In this document: piece after piece, positions 3,541 to 62,560 of the stretch
Numbering within the stretch: position 1 is the stretch's first letter
Layout: every line of letters begins with the position of its first letter
Source: Calliopum simillimum
Lineage: Eukaryota > Arthropoda > Insecta > Diptera > Lauxaniidae
Direction of reading: 5' to 3'
Length of the DNA: 64,000 nucleotides
NCBI GenBank assembly: GCA_951812925.1
Contig: OX638371.1
Location: forward strand, 114,475,124 to 114,539,123
Translations under genes and position numbers: made by a program
Notes under the pieces: generated by a model
What the model was told of the DNA's origin: nothing
Databases searched by the model: none
The model's input: only the letters and a program-made list of their open reading frames with translations

Positions 3541-3554
3541 AAAAGATTTGCTTG

Positions 3555-3815
3555 TCCAATTTTACCCGGTTTTTGCTGAAAGCTTGCATTTATAGTTCGT
3601 GGTGTCTGAATGAAATTTATTTTGATTATCTCAAAAAACGCTTTCAGTATAGCATTTTGAAGCTTTTGCTTATATGAGAGGTGCCACGCCCTCTTGTCCA
3701 AATTCGTCCAGTTTTTTTCAGAGCTTGCGCTTACAATTCGTAGTATCTATGTGTATTTCGGAAGGACAAAGTGAATATACGTATACCCTGGGTGTGGAGT
3801 ATAAAAACAGTTTTG
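3555..3815 (+). repeat. 142-bp-unit repeat with mini-me-like end
   Basis: It contains the phrases TTATATGAGAGGTGCCACGCC (3670-3690) and ATCTCAAAAAACGCTTTCAGT shared with the tandem block at 43330-43830. It ends with GGACAAAGTGAATATACG and ACCCTGGGTGTGGAGTA, the same terminus as the mini-me-like repeat at 43830-44215. It is therefore a second, internally deleted copy of that composite element. Confidence 0.7.
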
Positions 3816-8929: not shown

Positions 8930-11440
8930 AATATTTATTTATTTATTTGAGTCTTTGGATAATAACAACCCTAACAGACTAGACCAATTGAAATTAAATA
9001 TACATGAAATATATGACAATAATTGATATAAACTTAAATACAATGAAAATTTAACAAAGCTAAGAGCCTAAGCAGTATAGATTTATATTGAGCTTTATTC
9101 AAACAAAAATCAATTGAAATGTCTTTATATAATTTATTTAACAATAAAAGATTTCTATTAATGGGCTCATTTATGGCATAGTTCGACCCGTGACATCTAA
9201 TATAAAAATAATCTGAAGATCATAAAGCCCTAGAGGGAACGTTAAAAGCTATTAGCTGTATGATGTCAGGACAATCAATGAAATCATTAAAGACGTCATG
9301 AATAAACATAATGCTGTGAACAAGACGCCGATTTTCAAGAGTTTCAAGATGAATGAGCAAACAATGTGCATTGTATGATGGTAACGGTTCAGTAAAACCC
9401 AATGAGTGTAAGGCAAACTTAATAAATTTCCTTTGATCACGCTCCAAGCGAGTAATGTGGACCCCATAGTAAGGATTCCAAATAAAAGGAACGTATTCCA
9501 AATTGGTTCTTACAATTGATGTATGGAGAAGTTTCTTGGTAAAAGGATCTATAAACGCAGCACTATTCCTCTTAAAAGGGAATTAGGCTTTAGGCAAAAT
9601 ATGATTTACATGATTTGTAAAGTTTATCCATGAGTCAAAATAAATCCCAAGATCACGAATTTGATCAACTCTAGTTAAAAGCACATTCTCTATACTATAT
9701 AAATGCCACAAAGGATTATTAAGTTCAGAAAAGGTCATACAAAAGCATTTACTTAAGTTCAAAGTCAAGCAATTGTGACTGAACCAAGTAACAACATTAT
9801 TCAATTCATTTTGGAGAGTGCAACAATCAGATGTATTACTAACTTTATAATAAATTTTTAAATCATCAGCATATAAGGAAAAACGTACCAAAGAAAACCA
9901 AGTTGAGATATCATTAATATATAGAATGAATAACAGTAGACCAAGTATGCTGACTTGTGGTACTCTAGAAGTTTTTAAGAGAGATCGTGATTTAACATCA
10001 TCAATGGCTACAAAAGAGAACCTATTTGAACGTTGGAACGTTGAATGGAAACCTAGTTTGGATAGCTTAGAAATTAATATACAGTGAGAAACTTTATTAA
10101 AAGCCTTCGATATATCCGAATAAATAACGTCCAGTTGATCTCCACTTTCAAATGTGTTAATACAATATCTAGTAAAGGTACAGATATTTGTAAGAGTAGA
10201 TCTTCCAGGTAGAAAACCATGTTGGTACGGATAAGCTATATTTTTTACGGCAAAGATAAATTTATCCTTAACTATCTTTTCAAAAAGCTTTGGGATATTA
10301 GTGAGCTTTGATATTGGTCTGTAATTTTCTACGTTGTTTTTATTTCCCGATTTAAAGACAGGAGAGATTACAGAAATTTTCCATTTATCAATGAAAACGC
10401 CACTAGCAAGCGGTTTATTAAAAATTTTTAAAAGTGGGACAACTATCGAGCCATAACCGCCAAAAAGACACGATTTCGGATTTTTGTTTTTTGATGAAAA
10501 CCTATAATTCGTGTCCATACGCATCTTCTCTACAAATTTCATAACTGTAAAAAGTACCGTTACGGAGTTATAGCGAAAGAAATTAAGACTTAACCGACAT
10601 TCGAAGTATTTTGTTTATTTTTTTTGTGACTGCGAGTTGTTGGTTAAGTCATTTTTTCTTTTTGTGTCAAAAGTAACTTGCAAATAATGTAATAAAAAGG
10701 AAAATTTATTAAAAAGTCTAGATGAGGGTTAATAGTATATGTGACCACAAACGATTTTTGGTACAAAAACTGAAGATCAGATGGGGAATCTGGAAAAGAA
10801 AAAAAGGCTTAACTGACAAAACACTGAGAAATGGTCGATATAATATAAATAGGTGAATGAAACTAGTTGCATCTCAAGTCTAACACAAAATATAGCTTAC
10901 ATACTAAATTTCACTGTAATAGCTATACTTAATGCACAGGTATTTAAAAAAAACCTTCTCCTGTAAAATTTACTTTTTGTCAGTTAAGTCTTTTTGGCGG
11001 TTAGGGTTCGATATGGTTTTAACACATTTGATAAGTAAGTAAGAACTAAGTCCATCAAGATCTGATTTAAAACTATTTTTCAAACCAGCTATGCTATTCT
11101 CAACGTCATCAATGGTTAAACTGAGGGCACCAAAATTTATTAAAAAGTTTTCATTACCAGGTACAATTTGACTAATAGAGAAATGATCATCAAAATTTAA
11201 AACAAAAAATTTTTCAAATAAATCAACAGTATCAGAAAGAGAATTTGAAGATTTATCTTTGAAAAACATAGATGAAGATGATCATATCTCCAAAACGACT
11301 TTGGATTGGTTTTAAGCTGACCTTCAAGATTTAAAATGTACTGTGTATACAGAAATTTATTTAGGAATTCAAATTCACGTTTGTAGTGAATAAATTTTTC
11401 AATAAATTCCAAGCAACCTGTGGAGTTGAACTTTGTACAA
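8930..11440 (-). pseudogene. Decayed non-LTR retrotransposon, reverse transcriptase region (jockey/CR1-like)
   Basis: The best frame (9583 to about 10453) is a group of reverse-transcriptase motifs: NYRPISKL near residue 73, QHGFLPGRST near 107, the metal-binding Asp in YSDISKAF near 143, and YADDLKIY near 224 with the catalytic Asp pair. Further downstream a separate frame (9220-9501) continues as the thumb region (LERDQRKFIKFAL). Upstream pieces (10970-11412) give the linker before the RT domain, including NPKSFWRY. Frameshifts and a nested 546-bp insertion break the ORF. A TAAATAAATAAAT tail on the minus strand at about 8930-8945 may be the 3' end. The clade is tentative; the element is inactive. 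Confidence 0.85.
10456..11001. mobile_element. 546-bp MITE with TA target duplication, nested in the LINE
   Basis: The ends are perfect inverted repeats (ACCGCCAAAAAGAC at 10456 and its complement ending at 11001), flanked by TA at 10454-10455 and 11002-11003. Excising the element with one TA joins the two LINE frames exactly: ...TISNP on one side and YGSIVVPLL on the other. AAGACTTAACCGAC, GGTTAAGTCA and GGCTTAACTGAC near both ends form subterminal repeats. The TA duplication suggests the Tc1/mariner superfamily in the broad sense. No transposase is encoded. Confidence 0.88.
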
Positions 11441-17731: not shown

Positions 17732-18849
17732 GATATGATGATATGATGACATGATGATATGATGATATGATAATATGATGATATGATGATATGATGATAT
17801 GATGATATGATGATATGATGATATGATGATATGATGATATGATGATATGATGATATGATGATATGATGATATGATGATATGATGATATGATGATATGATG
17901 ATATGATGATATGATGATATGATGATATGATGATATGATGATATGATGATATGATGATATGATGATATGATGATATGATGATATGATGATATGATGATAT
18001 GATGATATGATGATATGATGATATGATGATATGATGATATGATGATATGATGATATGATGATATGATGATATGATGATATGATGATATGATGATATGATG
18101 ATATGATGATATGATGATATGATGATATGATGATATGATGATATGATGATATGATGATATGATGATATGATGATATGATGATATGATGATATGATGATAT
18201 GATGATATGATGATATGATGATATGATGATATGATGATATGATGATATGATGATATGATGATATGATGATATGATGATATGATGATATGATGATATGATG
18301 ATATGATGATATGATGATATGATGATATGATGATATGATGATATGATGATATGATGATATGATGATATGATGATATGATGATATGATGATATGATGATAT
18401 GATGATATGATGATATGATGATATGATGATATGATGATATGATGATATGATGATATGATGATATGATGATATGATGATATGATGATATGATGATATGATG
18501 ATATGATGATATGATGATATGATGATATGATGATATGATGATATGATGATATGATGATATGATGATATGATGATATGATGATATGATGATATGATGATAT
18601 GATGATATGATGATATGATGATATGATGATATGATGATATGATGATATGATGATATGATGATATGATGATATGATGATATGATGATATGATGATATGATG
18701 ATATGATGATATGATGATATGATGATATGATGATATGATGATATGATGATATGATGATATGATGATATGATGATATGATGATATGATGATATGATGATAT
18801 GATGATATGATGATATGATGATATGATGATATGATGATATGATGATATG
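17732..18849. repeat. 8-bp satellite (ATGATATG)n, about 140 copies
   Basis: After a short degenerate lead-in (one GATGACAT and one GATAATAT variant before 17775), the unit ATGATATG repeats without a visible interruption to about 18849, where it decays into TTATGACATGGTGATC. The uniformity over more than 1 kb is exceptional beside the other, diverged arrays in the window. It implies recent expansion, frequent homogenisation, or an assembly artefact. Confidence 0.97.
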
Positions 18850-43329: not shown

Positions 43330-43830
43330 ATAAGAACAAATTGCCACGCCTTCACCTCCGAGCTTACCTTGATTTTGCGTAGAGCTTGCATTTACTGTTC
43401 TGAGTGTTTGAGTAAAATTCGGTTAGGTTTTCTTAGAAAACACTTTTCAGTATAGCGTTTAGAAACTTTCGCTTATATGGGAGGTGCCACGCCCTCTAAT
43501 CCTACTTTGCCTACTTTAAGCTCAGAGTTTACAATTAACGTTCTTCGTGTTTGAGTGAAATTTGGTAGGATTATCTTAAAAAACACTTTCATTATATAAT
43601 TTTGAAACATTTGCTTATATGGGAGGCGCCATGCCCTCTTGTCCGAGTTTACCTAGATCTTGCATATAGCATGCATTTATAGATCCGAGTGTTTGAATGT
43701 AATTTGGTTGGGTTATCTCAAAAAACGCTTTCTGTATAACATTTTGGAACTTTTGTTTATATGGGAGGTGCCACGCCCTCTAGTCCGAATTCGCCTAGTT
43801 TTTGCTCAGAGCTTATATTTACTTTTCCTA
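43330..43830 (+). repeat. Tandem repeat, 142-bp unit, about 3.5 copies
   Basis: TTATATGGGAGGTGCCACGC recurs near 43473, 43615 and 43757, each followed by CCTCTAGTCCGAATTCGCCT-like sequence, GCTCAGAGCTTA and ATCTCAAAAAACGCTTTC. Spacing is 142 bp. The same unit lies at 3555-3700 and, inverted, at 45030-45360. Confidence 0.88.
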
Positions 43831-44215: not shown

Positions 44216-44439
44216 GTTGCAATGAATGTCACATATATATGTATGACGGATTGACGTGAGAGCAAACCAACTTTTAGGTCGATCGTTACCATTCGCTCTG
44301 AAACTTTTTGGCATGGTAATTTACTCGTAACATAAAACTGTTTTTTTTTTGACTTGTGGGCATTGTCCAGGGTGTTTGCAGAAAGATATGAGCTTTTGAA
44401 AAAAAAAAAAAAAAATTACACTGAAAAAAATTTTATTTT

Positions 44440-44550
44440 GAGTGGAAAAAAATTTATTTTCTTTTTTAAAGCCAATTTAGGGCTTGGTGCAACCTTTTCA
44501 TTTTTTTGAAATATTTTTATATAAAAGAAAATTTTATTATAACCTTCGAA
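44440..44550. repeat. Left arm of an inverted repeat enclosing the Transib locus
   Basis: TTCTTTTTTAAAGCCAATTT, GGGCTTGGTGCA and AAAATTTTATTATAA here are the inverted complement of 48555-48670. Together they look like the arms of a foldback or TIR element split by later insertions. Confidence 0.75.
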
Positions 44551-44905: not shown

Positions 44906-45029
44906 TTTTGAAGGTCGCACAGTGGGGCAAGGAGCTCTCATATGTGGCATCAAATAAACGGAGCTACGCACTGCAACCAAATTACATATATATACTAGGG
45001 ATGAATTATTTAAGCTTTCAACAAAATTT

Positions 45030-45360
45030 GGTCGAATTTGAACAAGAGGGCGTGGCATCTCCCATACAAGCAAAATCTTAAAAACTCTATACTGAGGGTA
45101 CTATCTAAGATAATCAAACCAAATTTCGTACAATTTCTACTAATAGTATAGGTAAACTCTGTAGGAAAATTAGCGAATTCGGACAAAAGGGCATGGCACT
45201 TCCTATACAAGAAAAATCTTTAAAACTCTATACAGAGAGTGCTATCTGAGATAATCGAACCAAATTTCGTAAACTTGCTACGAATAGTATGGAGTAGCTC
45301 TGGTAGGAAAATTGGAGAATTCGAAAAAGAGAGCGTGGCACCCCCTAAATAACAAAAATT
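45030..45360 (-). repeat. 142-bp-unit tandem repeat, inverted relative to 43330-43830
   Basis: GAGGGCGTGGCATCTCCCAT, AGGGCATGGCACTTCCTATA and GAGAGCGTGGCACCCCCTAA recur near 45046, 45187 and 45329, a 141-143-bp spacing. On the minus strand they read as the GGGAGGTGCCACGCCCTCT unit of the other block. The location between the Transib end and its coding region implies insertion into the transposon. Confidence 0.8.
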
Positions 45361-45439
45361 TTTATGTAGTTGAAAAAGTATGAATTTATTAATACATATT
45401 TATTAGTTCATTTAATATGTTCTGCTATCAATATACTAA

Positions 45440-45790
45440 CATGTACAAACCATGTGTAAACGATCAAGAAATTTGTTCATGGCATCCGATTTAGCTATAA
45501 ATTGGCATAAGCAATAGTTGCATAGTGGAAAAAATTACTACCAAATATTTTTTCAAAATTTAAAAAAATGGCGGAGATATGGGACTTTGAAATTTTTAGG
45601 TTAGTTTTTTTTGAGAAGCTATAACTTCGTTTGCATTTATCCAATTTTCAATTTTATAGTGTTAAATGATTTGTCTTAAAACAGACTTTGAAATAAAAAC
45701 TAGCAAACATTGCTTATGCCAATTTATAGCCAAATCGAATGCCATAAAAAAAATCTTGATCGTTTTGAAATGGTTTGTACCAATATGTAA
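45440..45790. repeat. Inverted repeat inside the Transib 3' region
   Basis: The left arm 45447-45522 (CAAACCAT, AACGATCAAGAA, GCTATAAATTGGCATAAGCA) is complementary to the right arm 45705-45783 (TGCTTATGCCAATTTATAGC, TCTTGATCGTTT, ATGGTTTG). About 180 bp lies between them. It may be a nested foldback element or part of the Transib non-coding region. Confidence 0.7.
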
Positions 45791-45907
45791 AATACATTTT
45801 TGATGCAGAACATTATGTTTATGTACATATATTTAATATAAAGAACAAGTATCTTAAAAAAACTTAATCAAAAAAATCTACTTCGCAAAGAAATAAATTT
45901 TGTAATA

Positions 45908-45974
45908 TTAAAAATACGACAAAGCATCATCTTCATCATCCTCATCATCATCATCATCGCCGTCATCATCAACG

Positions 45975-46020
<46 letters not shown>

Positions 46021-46021
46021 G

Positions 46022-46062
<41 letters not shown>

Positions 46063-48327
46063 TATCATTTTCGTCATCTGTTGCATTTTTATTTGACTCA
46101 TTGAGTGATGAAGCTTTTAACAAAGACATTGCTTCTTTGGAAATATTTTGTGCCTTTTTTGACTGGCTTCTGCTTACTGGTTATTACAGTGTCTGAGTTC
46201 AGTAAAAAAAAGTTAAATAAATCCCTGTTGGATTTTTCTCTGCTATATTTCCTTGAATTATGCTCCCTGTATCTCTTAAAATTTTTATTTCGAGCCTATA
46301 GGCCTATAGGAAGAAGTGCCGATGATATAACTTCCGATCCATGAAGCAAATACTTATGCAAAGTAGTAAGCATGTTCTACCAAGGGTGCAAAGAAACAAA
46401 GTATCGAGCAGTAACAGGCGCAAAGGTTTTGTATTTTTCAGTATCTATGTCCAATGCACTAGATATCGTTATCAAAATAGTGTGAATTCTTTTTATCAAG
46501 CCAACCATTTATTTGACTTATGTCCGCGGACAACTCAGAATTTTGAAAAAAACACCTGGCAGTATTTCCGTCATTGCTATTACCGAAACCAGTCTTGGGC
46601 TTATCTATATTCAGGCCACATTTTTCCTTAAATTCCTTTTGGATTCGAGCTTTATTTTCCGATACAATTTGTTTTTCTTCCACTCCAAGAACTTGCCATT
46701 TTGCAATGGGTAGTTTGTAGGATACATGCAGTAGGCATTCAAACACCGAATCCAGCCATGCAAAACAGAAATTCCGAATCACAAATAATCTACATTAACT
46801 TCTCTTGAAATCATATCATCTATATTGTTAAATTGCTTAGATGTCGCACCACACAAATAGCATGACATTGTTGACGTAGTTTCTGTAAGTGCATTGCAAA
46901 CTTTTCCATCCACCATTGACAAAATTAATTTATGCTGAACTTTTAATTGCCTTGACTCAAAAGTTACAATGCTTTTTTGTAGGCTTTTTATTTGATCTTC
47001 TATTTGTCTACTTTCCTTGACAGACACATCAGTAGACTCCTTCCGAAATTCGATTTTTATAGGCTTACAATATCTAGGTGATGCGGGACGTGAGTTTTGC
47101 CATATAATTATGTTTTCAGCCATCAATCGAAACGGAACTAGGCATATTAAAAAAACGATTGAGTCATCGGCTTTAGTGTTCAGAACTTTGTCCCGAAGAT
47201 CCATCAAATCCCCATTTAGTGATCAAGGAAATTTTATTCATTACGTCATCATTGAGGGTCGCGATGACAGGGATCAATGTATGACATAATCGGATTACAG
47301 TATGGTCTAACAGAGATTGCAATTTTACTAAAGCACCGGTTTCTGTAACTGTAATATCAGTTGGATAGCATAACTTTTTTGCTAATTGAACCGTTTTGTA
47401 AGAAGCAAACTTTTCCGGTGCGTTCTTTCTTATCACATCATACTGAACGCGGGATAATTTAGCTTCTATCAGCACCGATAATGCATCTTCTGCTGATAAA
47501 CCATGTTGTGGCTTAAGGGATTTTTTGTAAGCTTCTTGATGAAGTTTAGCATGCTTTGGATTGTTGGAAATATCTTTTAAAACTTTTGAGGCCTGAACTT
47601 GACCTTCAGCTCGTAATTTCATACGAGCAGCGTAAACTAATGTTGAGCTAGAAGTGGAATTATGCAGCAGTTCAGTCTTGGTTCGTTTGCTTCCTTCTGA
47701 AGATCCTTCAAAAGTAGTAACCTGTCGGCCGCGTTTCTTTTTTGACACTGCACATGCGAACGAAATTGATGTTTCGAGCCAATCTTTATTCCTTTTTTTA
47801 AATCTATTCTCTATTCTACACGCTTTCAGCCATTTTGATCTATATTGGGACTTGAAATGAGATAATCTCTTACTTAACTGTTCGTGTTGACCACCTGTCT
47901 TCTGTTCCAGCTGTTTTAACAAAAAATCGATTTGCTGCTCAAAATTATCCTCTCCAGAACTATACATAATATTTAAAAGCTCTTGTCTCGTAATGAATAA
48001 TAAGTTAGAGGCCATTTCTATCAATTAGAAATTTTGAATAATGTTGGCAATGCAAGATAAAATATTTTTTTTAGGTTACGTACCAAAATTGATGTATATT
48101 TGAAAGGAGCAAAAAGTCGCAAAATTTTCTTATTGTTTCTAGAAATCAATACTACACAGAATATTTTTGAATGACAATTAGTGCTTGGAAAGGCTTGGAA
48201 CCTAAACAAATTATCTATTATTTATTTAATTTCGTAAAATTTTTCTTTTCCATATTAAACGTGTAAACATTTTTAAGGAAAAAAATATGTTTATATACGG
48301 TTACATACCTGAAGTTGAAGGCTCCAT
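45908..48327 (-). pseudogene. RAG1-like Transib transposase, broken, with poly-Asp C terminus
   Basis: A small first exon (48309-48327, MEPSTS plus one base) ends at GTATGT. A 291-nt intron leads to an acceptor TTGATAG at 48018, and the joined frame continues as E-MASNLLFITRQ. The main frame (to 47173) ends with KWGFDGSSGQ, whose Asp (codon at 47203-47205) matches the first catalytic Asp of RAG1 (CDGMGD context). After a frameshift the next piece has IIIWQNSRP, YCKPI, SMVDGKVCN (putative second Asp, 46908-46910) and the C-x2-C of CYLCGAT, as in RAG1 CTLCDAT. A third piece holds SNDGNTARCFF. Then LPIG-L-stop-ARNK (about 46290-46330) appears to have lost the segment with the catalytic Glu. After another frameshift ISKEAMSLL leads into an acidic tail of about 50 Asp/Glu residues. 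The gene is dead; the family assignment is strong. Confidence 0.85.
45925..46072. repeat. (CAT)n trinucleotide tract
   Basis: CATCAT repeats with few interruptions (CCTCAT, CGCCGT, CAACGT, CATGAT). On the minus strand in the frame of the transposase C terminus it encodes Asp with a few Glu, His, Val and Gly. The purity of its central part suggests recent repeat expansion after the gene decayed. Confidence 0.95.
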
Positions 48328-48554
48328 GGTCAAATGACATTAAAAGTTAATATACTTAAGCAAAAATCTACAAAGTTAAAGTTTAGCGTGCTGTAGTGAA
48401 GAAATGGATTTGTTTCAAGTCATTTGAAAAATGGCAAATAGTACGTTGGTTAATATTGTACTTAACCAATATAAAAGGGTATCCTGAAATAACATTTAAT
48501 TTTTTGAATTATCGCCAAATATTAAGAGTATCTGCCCCACTGTGCGTCGGTAAA

Positions 48555-48670
48555 TAATTATAATAAAATTTACTTTTAAATAAAAATATTTAAAAAAAAA
48601 AATATAAAGGGTGCACCAAGATCCAAATTGGCTTTAAAAAAGAAAAAAGTTTTTTTTCCTTTAAAATTAT
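48555..48670. repeat. Right arm of the inverted repeat enclosing the Transib locus
   Basis: Inverted partner of 44440-44550: TTATAATAAAATTTACTTTT, TGCACCAAGATCC, AAATTGGCTTTAAAAAAGAA. The Transib target site lies about 10 bp inside this arm's end. Confidence 0.75.
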
Positions 48671-51429: not shown

Positions 51430-52339
51430 CAAATTTCAAGTGAAAATACCTGAAAGGAAAGGTTGAACTCCGATTCTGAATTCCAAAGAAATATACACTG
51501 ACGGCTCTAAAATGGAGTCTGGTGTAGGTGCGGGGGTATTTTCCAAGGACTTGAATAGCAGCGAGTCTTTTGCTTGACCCCGTTACTGCAGTGTATTTCA
51601 AGCGGAAATTCTGGCTGTGTGGAAGGCATGCCAAATTATTAAACCCAAAATTTATGAATGTAGTGACACATTTGTTATTTACGTTGATAGTCAGGCAGCC
51701 ATTAGGGCTTTTAAGTCCAATATTACTAAGTCTCGGTTAGTCCTTAGCTGCAGAAAATCCCTATGTGAAGTAGGGCACCTATGTAATCTTGCAATATGTT
51801 GGGTTCCTGGACACAGTAATTTCGTTGGTAATGAAAATGCTGATGAACTTGCTAGGAAAGGGTCTTTAACTGACATAATTTCTGAAACCTATATTATGAA
51901 ACCACTTGCATTGATAAGAGCCAACATTGACTCTAAATATATTTTGTGGGCTAATTTTAGATGGTCAGACTTAACTACATGTTTTACGTCGAGGGCGATA
52001 TGGCCACTGTATGACGCCAACAGAACATGTAGAATTATTTCCTTAGATAGGAGATCTTTTTAGAAGTTGTAAAGATCCTCACGTCGAAGAGTCCATTTTT
52101 CATTTCCTTTGTGAATGCCCAGCGTTGGCTAACCGACGTTGTAAGGTGTTCGAAAGTCATTTCTTCGACTCTCTTGAAGATATAGCTCAAAAGAGTCCCA
52201 AATCCATTTTGGAGTTTATAAAAATTTCTAAATGGTTCACACAGGTTAACAACGAAGTTATATATCGGGTATACAATGGGCCTAATCACGGCCTAAGTTA
52301 TGATGGCAACTGCTATCTCCCGCGCTAACCTAACCTAAC
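51430..52339 (+). pseudogene. 5'-truncated LINE: RNase H domain and C-terminal region
   Basis: Beginning near 51488, the frame reads IYTDGSKMESG, an in-frame TGA, FQAEILAVWKA, IYVDSQAAIRAF and WVPGHSNFVGNENADELAR, giving the RNase H set D-E-D-H-D. This domain lies after the RT in I, LOA and some R1-clade LINEs. Later, in other frames, ESIFHFLCECPALANRRC gives the C-terminal cysteine motif. The tail is CTAAC repeated (52325-52339). The 9-bp CTAAAGTAC is present on both sides (51421-51429 and 52340-52348), a convincing TSD. Frameshifts and the stop make it nonfunctional. Confidence 0.88.
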
Positions 52340-61016: not shown

Positions 61017-62560
61017 TCGAAAACGGCTACAGCGATTTTAATGAAACTTGGACTAGTGTTAGATATTAGCTTACAATGAAGAATGAGCTAAGTTTGAACT
61101 TTGTAAATGCTCACCAGAGGGCGTGGCACAGCCTTAAATTTTAAATTTGATTTAGTAATAACTCGCAAATTATACAAGGTATTTGGATGAAATTTGGTGA
61201 GCGGGTACGGGTTAATAATACCTCGTAACGGACAAAAAGTGAACTGGATCGAAGAAGTGCCACGCCCACTTTTCAGCCCTTGAAAATTTTGATTCAATAT
61301 TACTCGAAAACGACTCCAACAATTTTGATGAAAATTTAGGAGATGTTACCTCTGCAAACAAGGATTAATATGTGATATGCCGTTATATTGGGAAAACTCG
61401 TTGAAGGGCGTGGCACCGCCCACAAAAATATAAAACGGTATAAAAAGAAAACTAATAAAGCAAACATTCTGAAATTAACTGTGAGGTGCGTAATTGCAAA
61501 AAGGCATCTCTGATCTGAAAGTGGGCGAAATATTGCCATTGCGCGTGGAACCTCCCATACAAGCCAAATACGTTAAATGCTATTTTTCGCAAATGTTACA
61601 AGATATTTTAATGAAATTTGGTATGTAGGTACTGCTTATTAATGCCTTATAATAACCGAAAAGTGGGCGGTATCGAAGAAGTACCACGCCCCCTTTTTAG
61701 CCGTTGAAAATTTTGATTTAATATTACTCGAAAACGACTCCAACAATTTTAATGAAAATTTAAGAGATTGTACCCTTGAAAACAAGTGTTAATATGTGAT
61801 ATGCTGTTATATTGGAAAAACTCGATGAAGGGCGTGGCACCGCCCACAGAAATATAATACGCTTTAAAAAGAAAACTACTAAAGCAATCTTTCTGAATTT
61901 AACGTAAGGTAGTCTACTTGCTATTAGGCACCATTACGAACTGAAAGTAGAGAAAATATCGCCTATGGGCGTGGAATCTCCCATACAAGTAAAACACGTT
62001 AAATGTTATCTCACGCAAATGGTACAACATATTTTGATGGAATTTGGTACACAGCTATTGCTGGCAAATGCCTTTTATATAAACAAAAGTGGGTGATACC
62101 GAGAAAGTGCCAGGCCCACTTTTTAACCATTCAAAATTTTGATTCGATATTATTCGAAAACGACTCCATTAATTTTAATGAAAATTTAAGAGGTGTTACC
62201 CTTAAAAACAAGGAATAATATGCGATATGCCGTTTTATTGGAAAAACTCACTGAAAGGCGTGGCACCGCCTACAAAAATATAATACGCTACAAAAAAAAA
62301 ATACAAAAGCAATCTTCGTAAATTTAACTGTAGGGAGTCTCCTTTTTATTAGGCACCTACGACCTGAAAATGGGCAATATATCGCTGGTGCGCATCGAAC
62401 CTCCCATACAAGTAAAACAAATAAAATGCTATTTCTCGCAAATGCTACAACGTATTTTGATGAAATTTGGTATGCGGATCTGGATCATGAGTATCTTAAG
62501 CATAACGAAAAGTGGGATTCGTTCAACAATTGCCACGACCACTTTTTACCAAAATAAAAA
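61017..62560 (+). repeat. Tandem array, ~422-bp unit, about 3.5 copies
   Basis: TATTACTCGAAAACGACTCC recurs at 61300, 61721 and (TATTATTCGAAAAC) 62144, spacing 421 and 423 bp; a partial unit precedes at 61017. Within each unit GGGCGTGGCACCGCCCAC, AAAGCAA.C.TTCTGAA, CCTCCCATACAAG and ATGAAATTTGGTA recur in order. Several palindromic GTGGC/GCCAC motifs occur per unit. No ORF is conserved across units. Confidence 0.9.

Follow-up and report, generated by a model that had tools for sequence, protein, structure and literature searches.

Background

Vertebrate RAG1 and its recombination signal sequences (RSSs) are held to derive from Transib-like elements, an accepted picture that the findings reported here leave unchanged. 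In PMC8289069 and PMC8355894 the ends of Transib elements are described as RSS-like, some of them with a heptamer and a nonamer identical to those of canonical RSSs. Most Transib families, HzTransib included, are reported to have heptamer-like ends with little or no nonamer likeness (PMC8289069), and a few Transibs to show a 12/23 asymmetry (PMC8355894). PMC4735498 and PMC5704228 name CGNCG as the pentamer that Transib elements target. Our search found no literature joining Transib with the heptamer CACAATG.

The stretch of DNA analysed here, which we refer to as the window, is 64 kb long (C4:114475124-114539123 of a 690-Mb assembly in 334 contigs). At 44918-48544 of the window lies an element of 3,627 bp that we read, with a probability of about 0.97, as a degenerate copy of an autonomous-type Transib DNA transposon that inserted into an arm of an inverted-repeat element older than itself. 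This reading is carried by the ends and the target duplication of the element, by colinear transposase pieces in broken frames with a stop in the catalytic Glu column, and by internally deleted sister copies elsewhere in the assembly.

Results

Ends, target duplication and sister copies

The 12-mer CACAGTGGGGCA is present without mismatch at 44918-44929 on the plus strand and, inverted, at 48533-48544 on the minus strand, and one further window match within two mismatches carries both of them. Both terminal inverted repeats thus begin with a CAC heptamer; they are imperfect, with similarity reaching 31 bp, and a 33-bp inverted pair (44916-48546) that takes in two flanking bases is 73% complementary. 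The flanks, GGTCG and CGTCG, are a 5-bp duplication identical at 4/5 positions, an imperfection that counts against the Transib reading.

Across the whole assembly CACAGTGGGGCA lies at 476 places (249 forward and 227 reverse), compared with 3 places (1 + 2) for the letter-reversed 12-mer. We examined the first 100 of the 476, all of which fall on contig C1, and paired a plus place with a following minus place within 4.5 kb. This returned 29 pairs (58 places), 40 unpaired places and two extra minus places inside the stretch of L018. All 29 pairs, chosen as they were by the exact 12-mer, match the window element, and 27 have perfect target duplications, the other two agreeing at 4/5 positions; when left and right flanks are taken from different copies, they agree perfectly in 8% of comparisons. 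Position by position the duplications read C (27/29), G (26/29), any base, C (24 left and 23 right of 29) and G (26 left and 27 right of 29), which is the CGNCG preference. The boundaries of the element are settled by these sister copies, that is, by the 476 places of the 12-mer and the perfect duplications of 27 of the 29 copies with both ends. The first-pass annotation had placed inverted CACAGTGGGGCA ends at 44918 and 48544, with flanks one mismatch from a 5-bp duplication, and it was right in each respect.

That annotation had also suggested that bounded copies of about 3 kb would be found across the genome. Bounded copies are indeed there, at a different size: 28 of the 29 measure 453-1,340 bp, 23 of these 1,175-1,340 bp. 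The 2,983-bp pair, L021, was considered as a full-length copy and rejected, being a short copy with an insert of ~1.9 kb unlike the window element. The common short copies match the first ~445 bp and the last ~727 bp of the window element without its interior, and all but one of the 29 pairs (28) are internally deleted derivatives. Among nineteen copies of 1,299-1,340 bp, similarity averages 95.6% (range 92.8-99.9%), and the copies differ from the column majority by 2.65%.

The 40 unpaired places were examined with ~4.5 kb on the element side at a threshold of 24 matches over 31 bp, and 24 of them start like the window family over these 31 bp. Two of the 16 that fail are nevertheless related: L055 is 75% identical to the element, and L064 is a slightly deleted end of the family. 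At the other 14 the 12-mer sits in other sequence. Of these 14, L038, L045 and L068 match the tandem-repeat part of the element only. At L039, L041, L042 and L047, TGTTG precedes CACAGTGGGGCA and unrelated sequence follows it, and these places are perhaps the end of another repeat.

The transposase relic

Four minus-strand pieces within the element match the solved chain 6pqn colinearly, at its residues 7-115 (E 2e-13), 125-245 (3e-25), 262-341 (4e-15) and 420-473 (1e-8), and for each piece 6pqn is the top solved chain. The chain is labelled 'Putative DNA-mediated transposase', and we take it to be HzTransib. The frame changes four times (near 47185/47174, 46791/46770, 46462 and 46150-46180), and together with the two in-frame stops of piece 4 this means that the transposase gene of the window copy is dead. 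Both Asp motifs of the DDE triad are present, and the second stop of piece 4 aligns, with six neighbouring residues missing, to the conserved column in which relatives carry the catalytic Glu, a placement that depends on the alignment. The C-C/H-H residues, with a zinc role known from RAG1, can still be read in the relic.

A read-through query, in which the pieces were joined with X at the joins, has 296 relatives at E <= 1e-3 among 7,992 candidates scored, the best of them being an uncharacterised protein of Amyelois transitella (LOC132903670; P0013). Removal of a probable intron would let the start of the window transposase match MEPSSSG of P0013 (Table 1). The CAT repeat at 45925-46068 is part of the coding sequence rather than unrelated filler: it encodes an acidic tail, and a like ending is seen in the Amyelois protein (DDEDDALSYF in the window, DDDDD...GALTYL in the protein). 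In a 53-row tree the two proteins pair with support of 100/99; only 9 of the 52 other rows are named, and therefore this pairing is no test of horizontal transfer.

Table 1. Features of the element and its insertion site, in window coordinates
Feature	Position	Strand	Basis or remark
Left arm of older inverted-repeat element, Transib target	44434..44542	+	Inverted match
Left target-site duplication, GGTCG	44913..44917	.	4/5 match to right side
Left terminal inverted repeat, heptamer CACAGTG, first 12 bp exact	44918..44948	+	End type as in the 29 paired sister copies
141-bp tandem repeat inside left end, 2.3 copies	45033..45364	.	Kept in short copies
Palindromic MITE-like insert inside the Transib	45443..45780	.	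Unmatched in the 29 paired copies
C-terminal tail, further frame	45908..46180	-	CAT repeat encodes Asp-rich stretch; ends ALSYF-stop
Transposase piece 4, zinc histidines (LHKYLLHG), two in-frame stops	46176..46463	-	Alignment
Transposase piece 3, FECLLHVSYKLP...GNSNDGNTAR	46462..46770	-	Another frame change
Transposase piece 2, second Asp (MVDGKV), zinc cysteines (CYLC)	46791..47174	-	Frame unlike piece 1
Transposase piece 1, ends at first catalytic Asp motif KWGFDGSSGQS	47185..48015	-	P0013, 65% identity over span
Probable 291-bp intron, GT...AG	about 48018-48308	-	Inferred from sequence
Probable first coding exon, MEPSTS	48310..48327	-	Inferred from sequence; P0013 starts MEPSSSGTSNKLLF without gap
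Right terminal inverted repeat	48514..48544	-	Inverted match; end comparison with sister copies
Right target-site duplication, CGTCG	48545..48549	.	Fits CGNCG, family consensus
Right arm of older element	48558..48669	-	Match spans the junction once flanks are joined

A family profile built from ten sequences, the read-through included, scores 6pqn at 564 bits, RAG1L (6b40) at 45 bits (E 5e-11) and RAG1 at 32 bits and lower, so that in its transposase the family is nearer to Transib than to other DDE families. The profile aligns the family residue before ARNK with the RAG1 Glu before SGNK, presumably E962 of the mouse protein. The first-pass annotation had named a Transib with a RAG1-like transposase relic; its RAG1-like motifs are there on the minus strand, and its identification is upheld by the 6pqn matches (E 3e-25 to 1e-8), the boundaries shared with the sister copies and the profile. 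The Pfam evidence weighs on the other side of the degenerate-Transib reading: the Pfam RAG1 model has no match in the window pieces or the read-through, the Pfam scan of the transposase pieces returned weak unrelated matches alone, and PF12940 is patchy among relatives, being above cut-off in P0100, below it in P0013 and P0047 and absent from P0015 and P0060 in one set of five, and below cut-off in P0001 and absent from P0003 and P0006 in three more. An element of another DDE superfamily (hAT, P, Ginger etc.) with CACAGTG ends by chance could draw on the occurrence of the 12-mer outside the family, seen where 16 of the 40 unpaired places fail the 24/31 end test (L064 and L055 among them being related). 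We consider such an identity refuted and its probability negligible, given that 6pqn heads the solved chains for all four pieces and the profile, and that the 5-bp duplications follow CGNCG.

Comparison of the ends with RSSs

In the window element the heptamer, CACAGTG, agrees with the RSS consensus at every base. The end majorities match the RSS nonamer at 3-5/9 positions for spacers of 12 or 23 (+/-1), a level reached by 22-80% of shuffles, and at 4/9 for spacers of 20-22, reached by about half of shuffles. The description of the ends as RSS-identical therefore holds for the heptamer and fails for the nonamer and the 12/23 spacing, neither being beyond chance. The window family belongs to the common sort of Transib, with heptamer-like and nonamer-poor ends. 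The claim of the first-pass annotation that the copy allows direct comparison with the ancestry of V(D)J recombination was too strong, because the gene is dead and RSS-like Transib ends have already been published.

The best A-rich nonamer matches, 6/9, stand at spacers of 27 (left) and 30 (right), and 9-10% of shuffles reach 6/9 for spacers of 27-31 and ~60% anywhere. These spacers are near the 27/31 given for ProtoRAG in the literature, and with the RAG1-type motifs, the CAC heptamer and the profile matches to RAG1L 6b40 and RAG1 they are what a RAG-like (RAG1L/RAG2L, ProtoRAG-type) transposon would offer in place of a plain Transib. We judge this identity highly improbable, since the 6pqn score is more than tenfold that of RAG1L and the acidic tail is without the Cx2Cx3GHx4C motif attributed to invertebrate RAG1L in PMC7204232. 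A search for a second gene covered ten more ORFs (66-101 aa) that lie inside the element or overlap it, and none of them has a Pfam family above cut-off; within that scan the element has the single gene of a Transib and not the RAG1L and RAG2L genes of ProtoRAG.

Insertion history

By analogy with the HzTransib/RAG1 family, the transposase would have bound both 31-bp ends and cut at the CAC heptamers with a DDE RNase-H site, and the excised element would then have been joined to CGNCG target DNA cut with a stagger, giving the 5-bp duplications. Its landing site was one arm of the older inverted-repeat element. When the flanks are joined with one duplication, the match between the arms continues across the insertion point (136 columns, 79%, including a gap of 11 bp there), whereas with both duplications it splits in two. 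The MITE-like sequence at 45443-45780 entered the Transib later, and a partial copy of it lies outside a Transib in L073 (90.5%). The tandem repeat inside the left end has relatives in the arrays at 43342-43821 and 3551-3716 (141/142 bp, TGCCACGCCC motif). Repeats with the TGCCACGCCC motif outside the Transib run in the opposite orientation.

Other repeats of the window include an 8-bp satellite, GATATGAT, at 17732-18849 (~140 copies, 99% matches), a 426-bp tandem repeat at 61250-62472 (2.9 copies), and retrotransposon remains with reverse transcriptase (PF00078) and RNase H (PF00075) at 9583-10614 and 51578-52063. Rfam and tRNA scans of the 64-kb window returned nothing.

Mobilization of the short copies

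Transposase sequence beyond residue 111 of P0013 is absent in 69/69 places (29 paired and 40 unpaired; E 1e-3). Searching the assembly with piece 2 gave 151 matches (278 candidates, 150 scored). Among the matches scored, the window stands at 100% and the next at 57% over 130 aa; there is also one decayed fragment with 68% over 79 aa, and the 5 kb around it (L080) match interior parts of the element and not its ends. On this ranking, no transposase of this type other than that of the window copy is well preserved among the matches scored. It is this that speaks against mobilization of the short copies by a transposase of the window element's own type, encoded by an intact copy since lost, unassembled or missed, rather than by another Transib family: no second well-preserved transposase of the same type appears with 150 of 278 candidates scored. 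In favour of such a source, the terminal ~170-230 bp of the window copy are 93.6-95.9% alike to L014, L021 and L030, and in many short copies residues 9-72, the beginning of a transposase of the window's type, are retained. We put the chances of this origin at about even.

The assembly is rich in other Transib-like transposases, with at least five matches in 677-aa open frames. One of these frames, at L078, belongs to a second Transib family, whose element here runs between CACAGTGGGGTATTG and CACAAAGGGGTATTG and is flanked on each side by CGGCT. Its transposase is 46% identical to that of the window, and it shares with the window element the 5-bp duplication and one end starting CACAGTGGGG, whereas its other end starts CACAAAGGGG; in DNA, the two resemble each other solely along 568 bp of transposase sequence (64%) and in a single match of 22 bp. 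A second copy of this family, L079, has the same right end, and its left end was not found. The L078 Transib is a nested insertion in another element; the stretch that encloses it, L078:519-4655 (4,137 bp), has inverted ends CACGCCTGTC... (24/25) and CCTTA on both sides.

Since amplification appears recent and the sole well-preserved transposase copy found is dead, driving across families is possible, and the second Transib family is a possible mobilizer of the short copies in trans. That a recently amplified family had its short copies driven by a second Transib sharing the terminal CACAGTGGGG only is a proposal we regard as rather unlikely. Were it true, recognition resting on a core of heptamer plus GGG, without a nonamer, would be a model for how a recombinase adopts foreign ends.

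Discussion

Our findings add a well-bounded Transib family with an RSS-equal heptamer and clean CGNCG duplications, and show many recent non-autonomous copies together with a relic that carries a dead transposase. With such a family one can ask which bases of its ends a Transib transposase requires.

The comparison with known systems begins with HzTransib (Helicoverpa zea, 6pqn), with which the window element shares a colinear transposase over residues 7-473 and a 5-bp duplication, although the window copy is dead and diverged. In size the two are close, 3,518 bp being given for Hztransib in PMC1852546 against 3,627 bp here, and the same source gives its duplication as GCTCG, compared with GGTCG/CGTCG in the window. 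The Amyelois transitella protein is like the window transposase in its start and its acidic tail, at 62% identity over 98%, and differs in that its frame is intact in the moth and the relic is broken. The profile of the window family aligns with the C-terminal block of vertebrate RAG1, its last catalytic acid included, whereas the nonamer and 12/23 spacer of the RSSs have no counterpart beyond chance in the window element, in which no second gene was seen. The window element is of a known Transib kind, and is a clear example of it rather than a new system.
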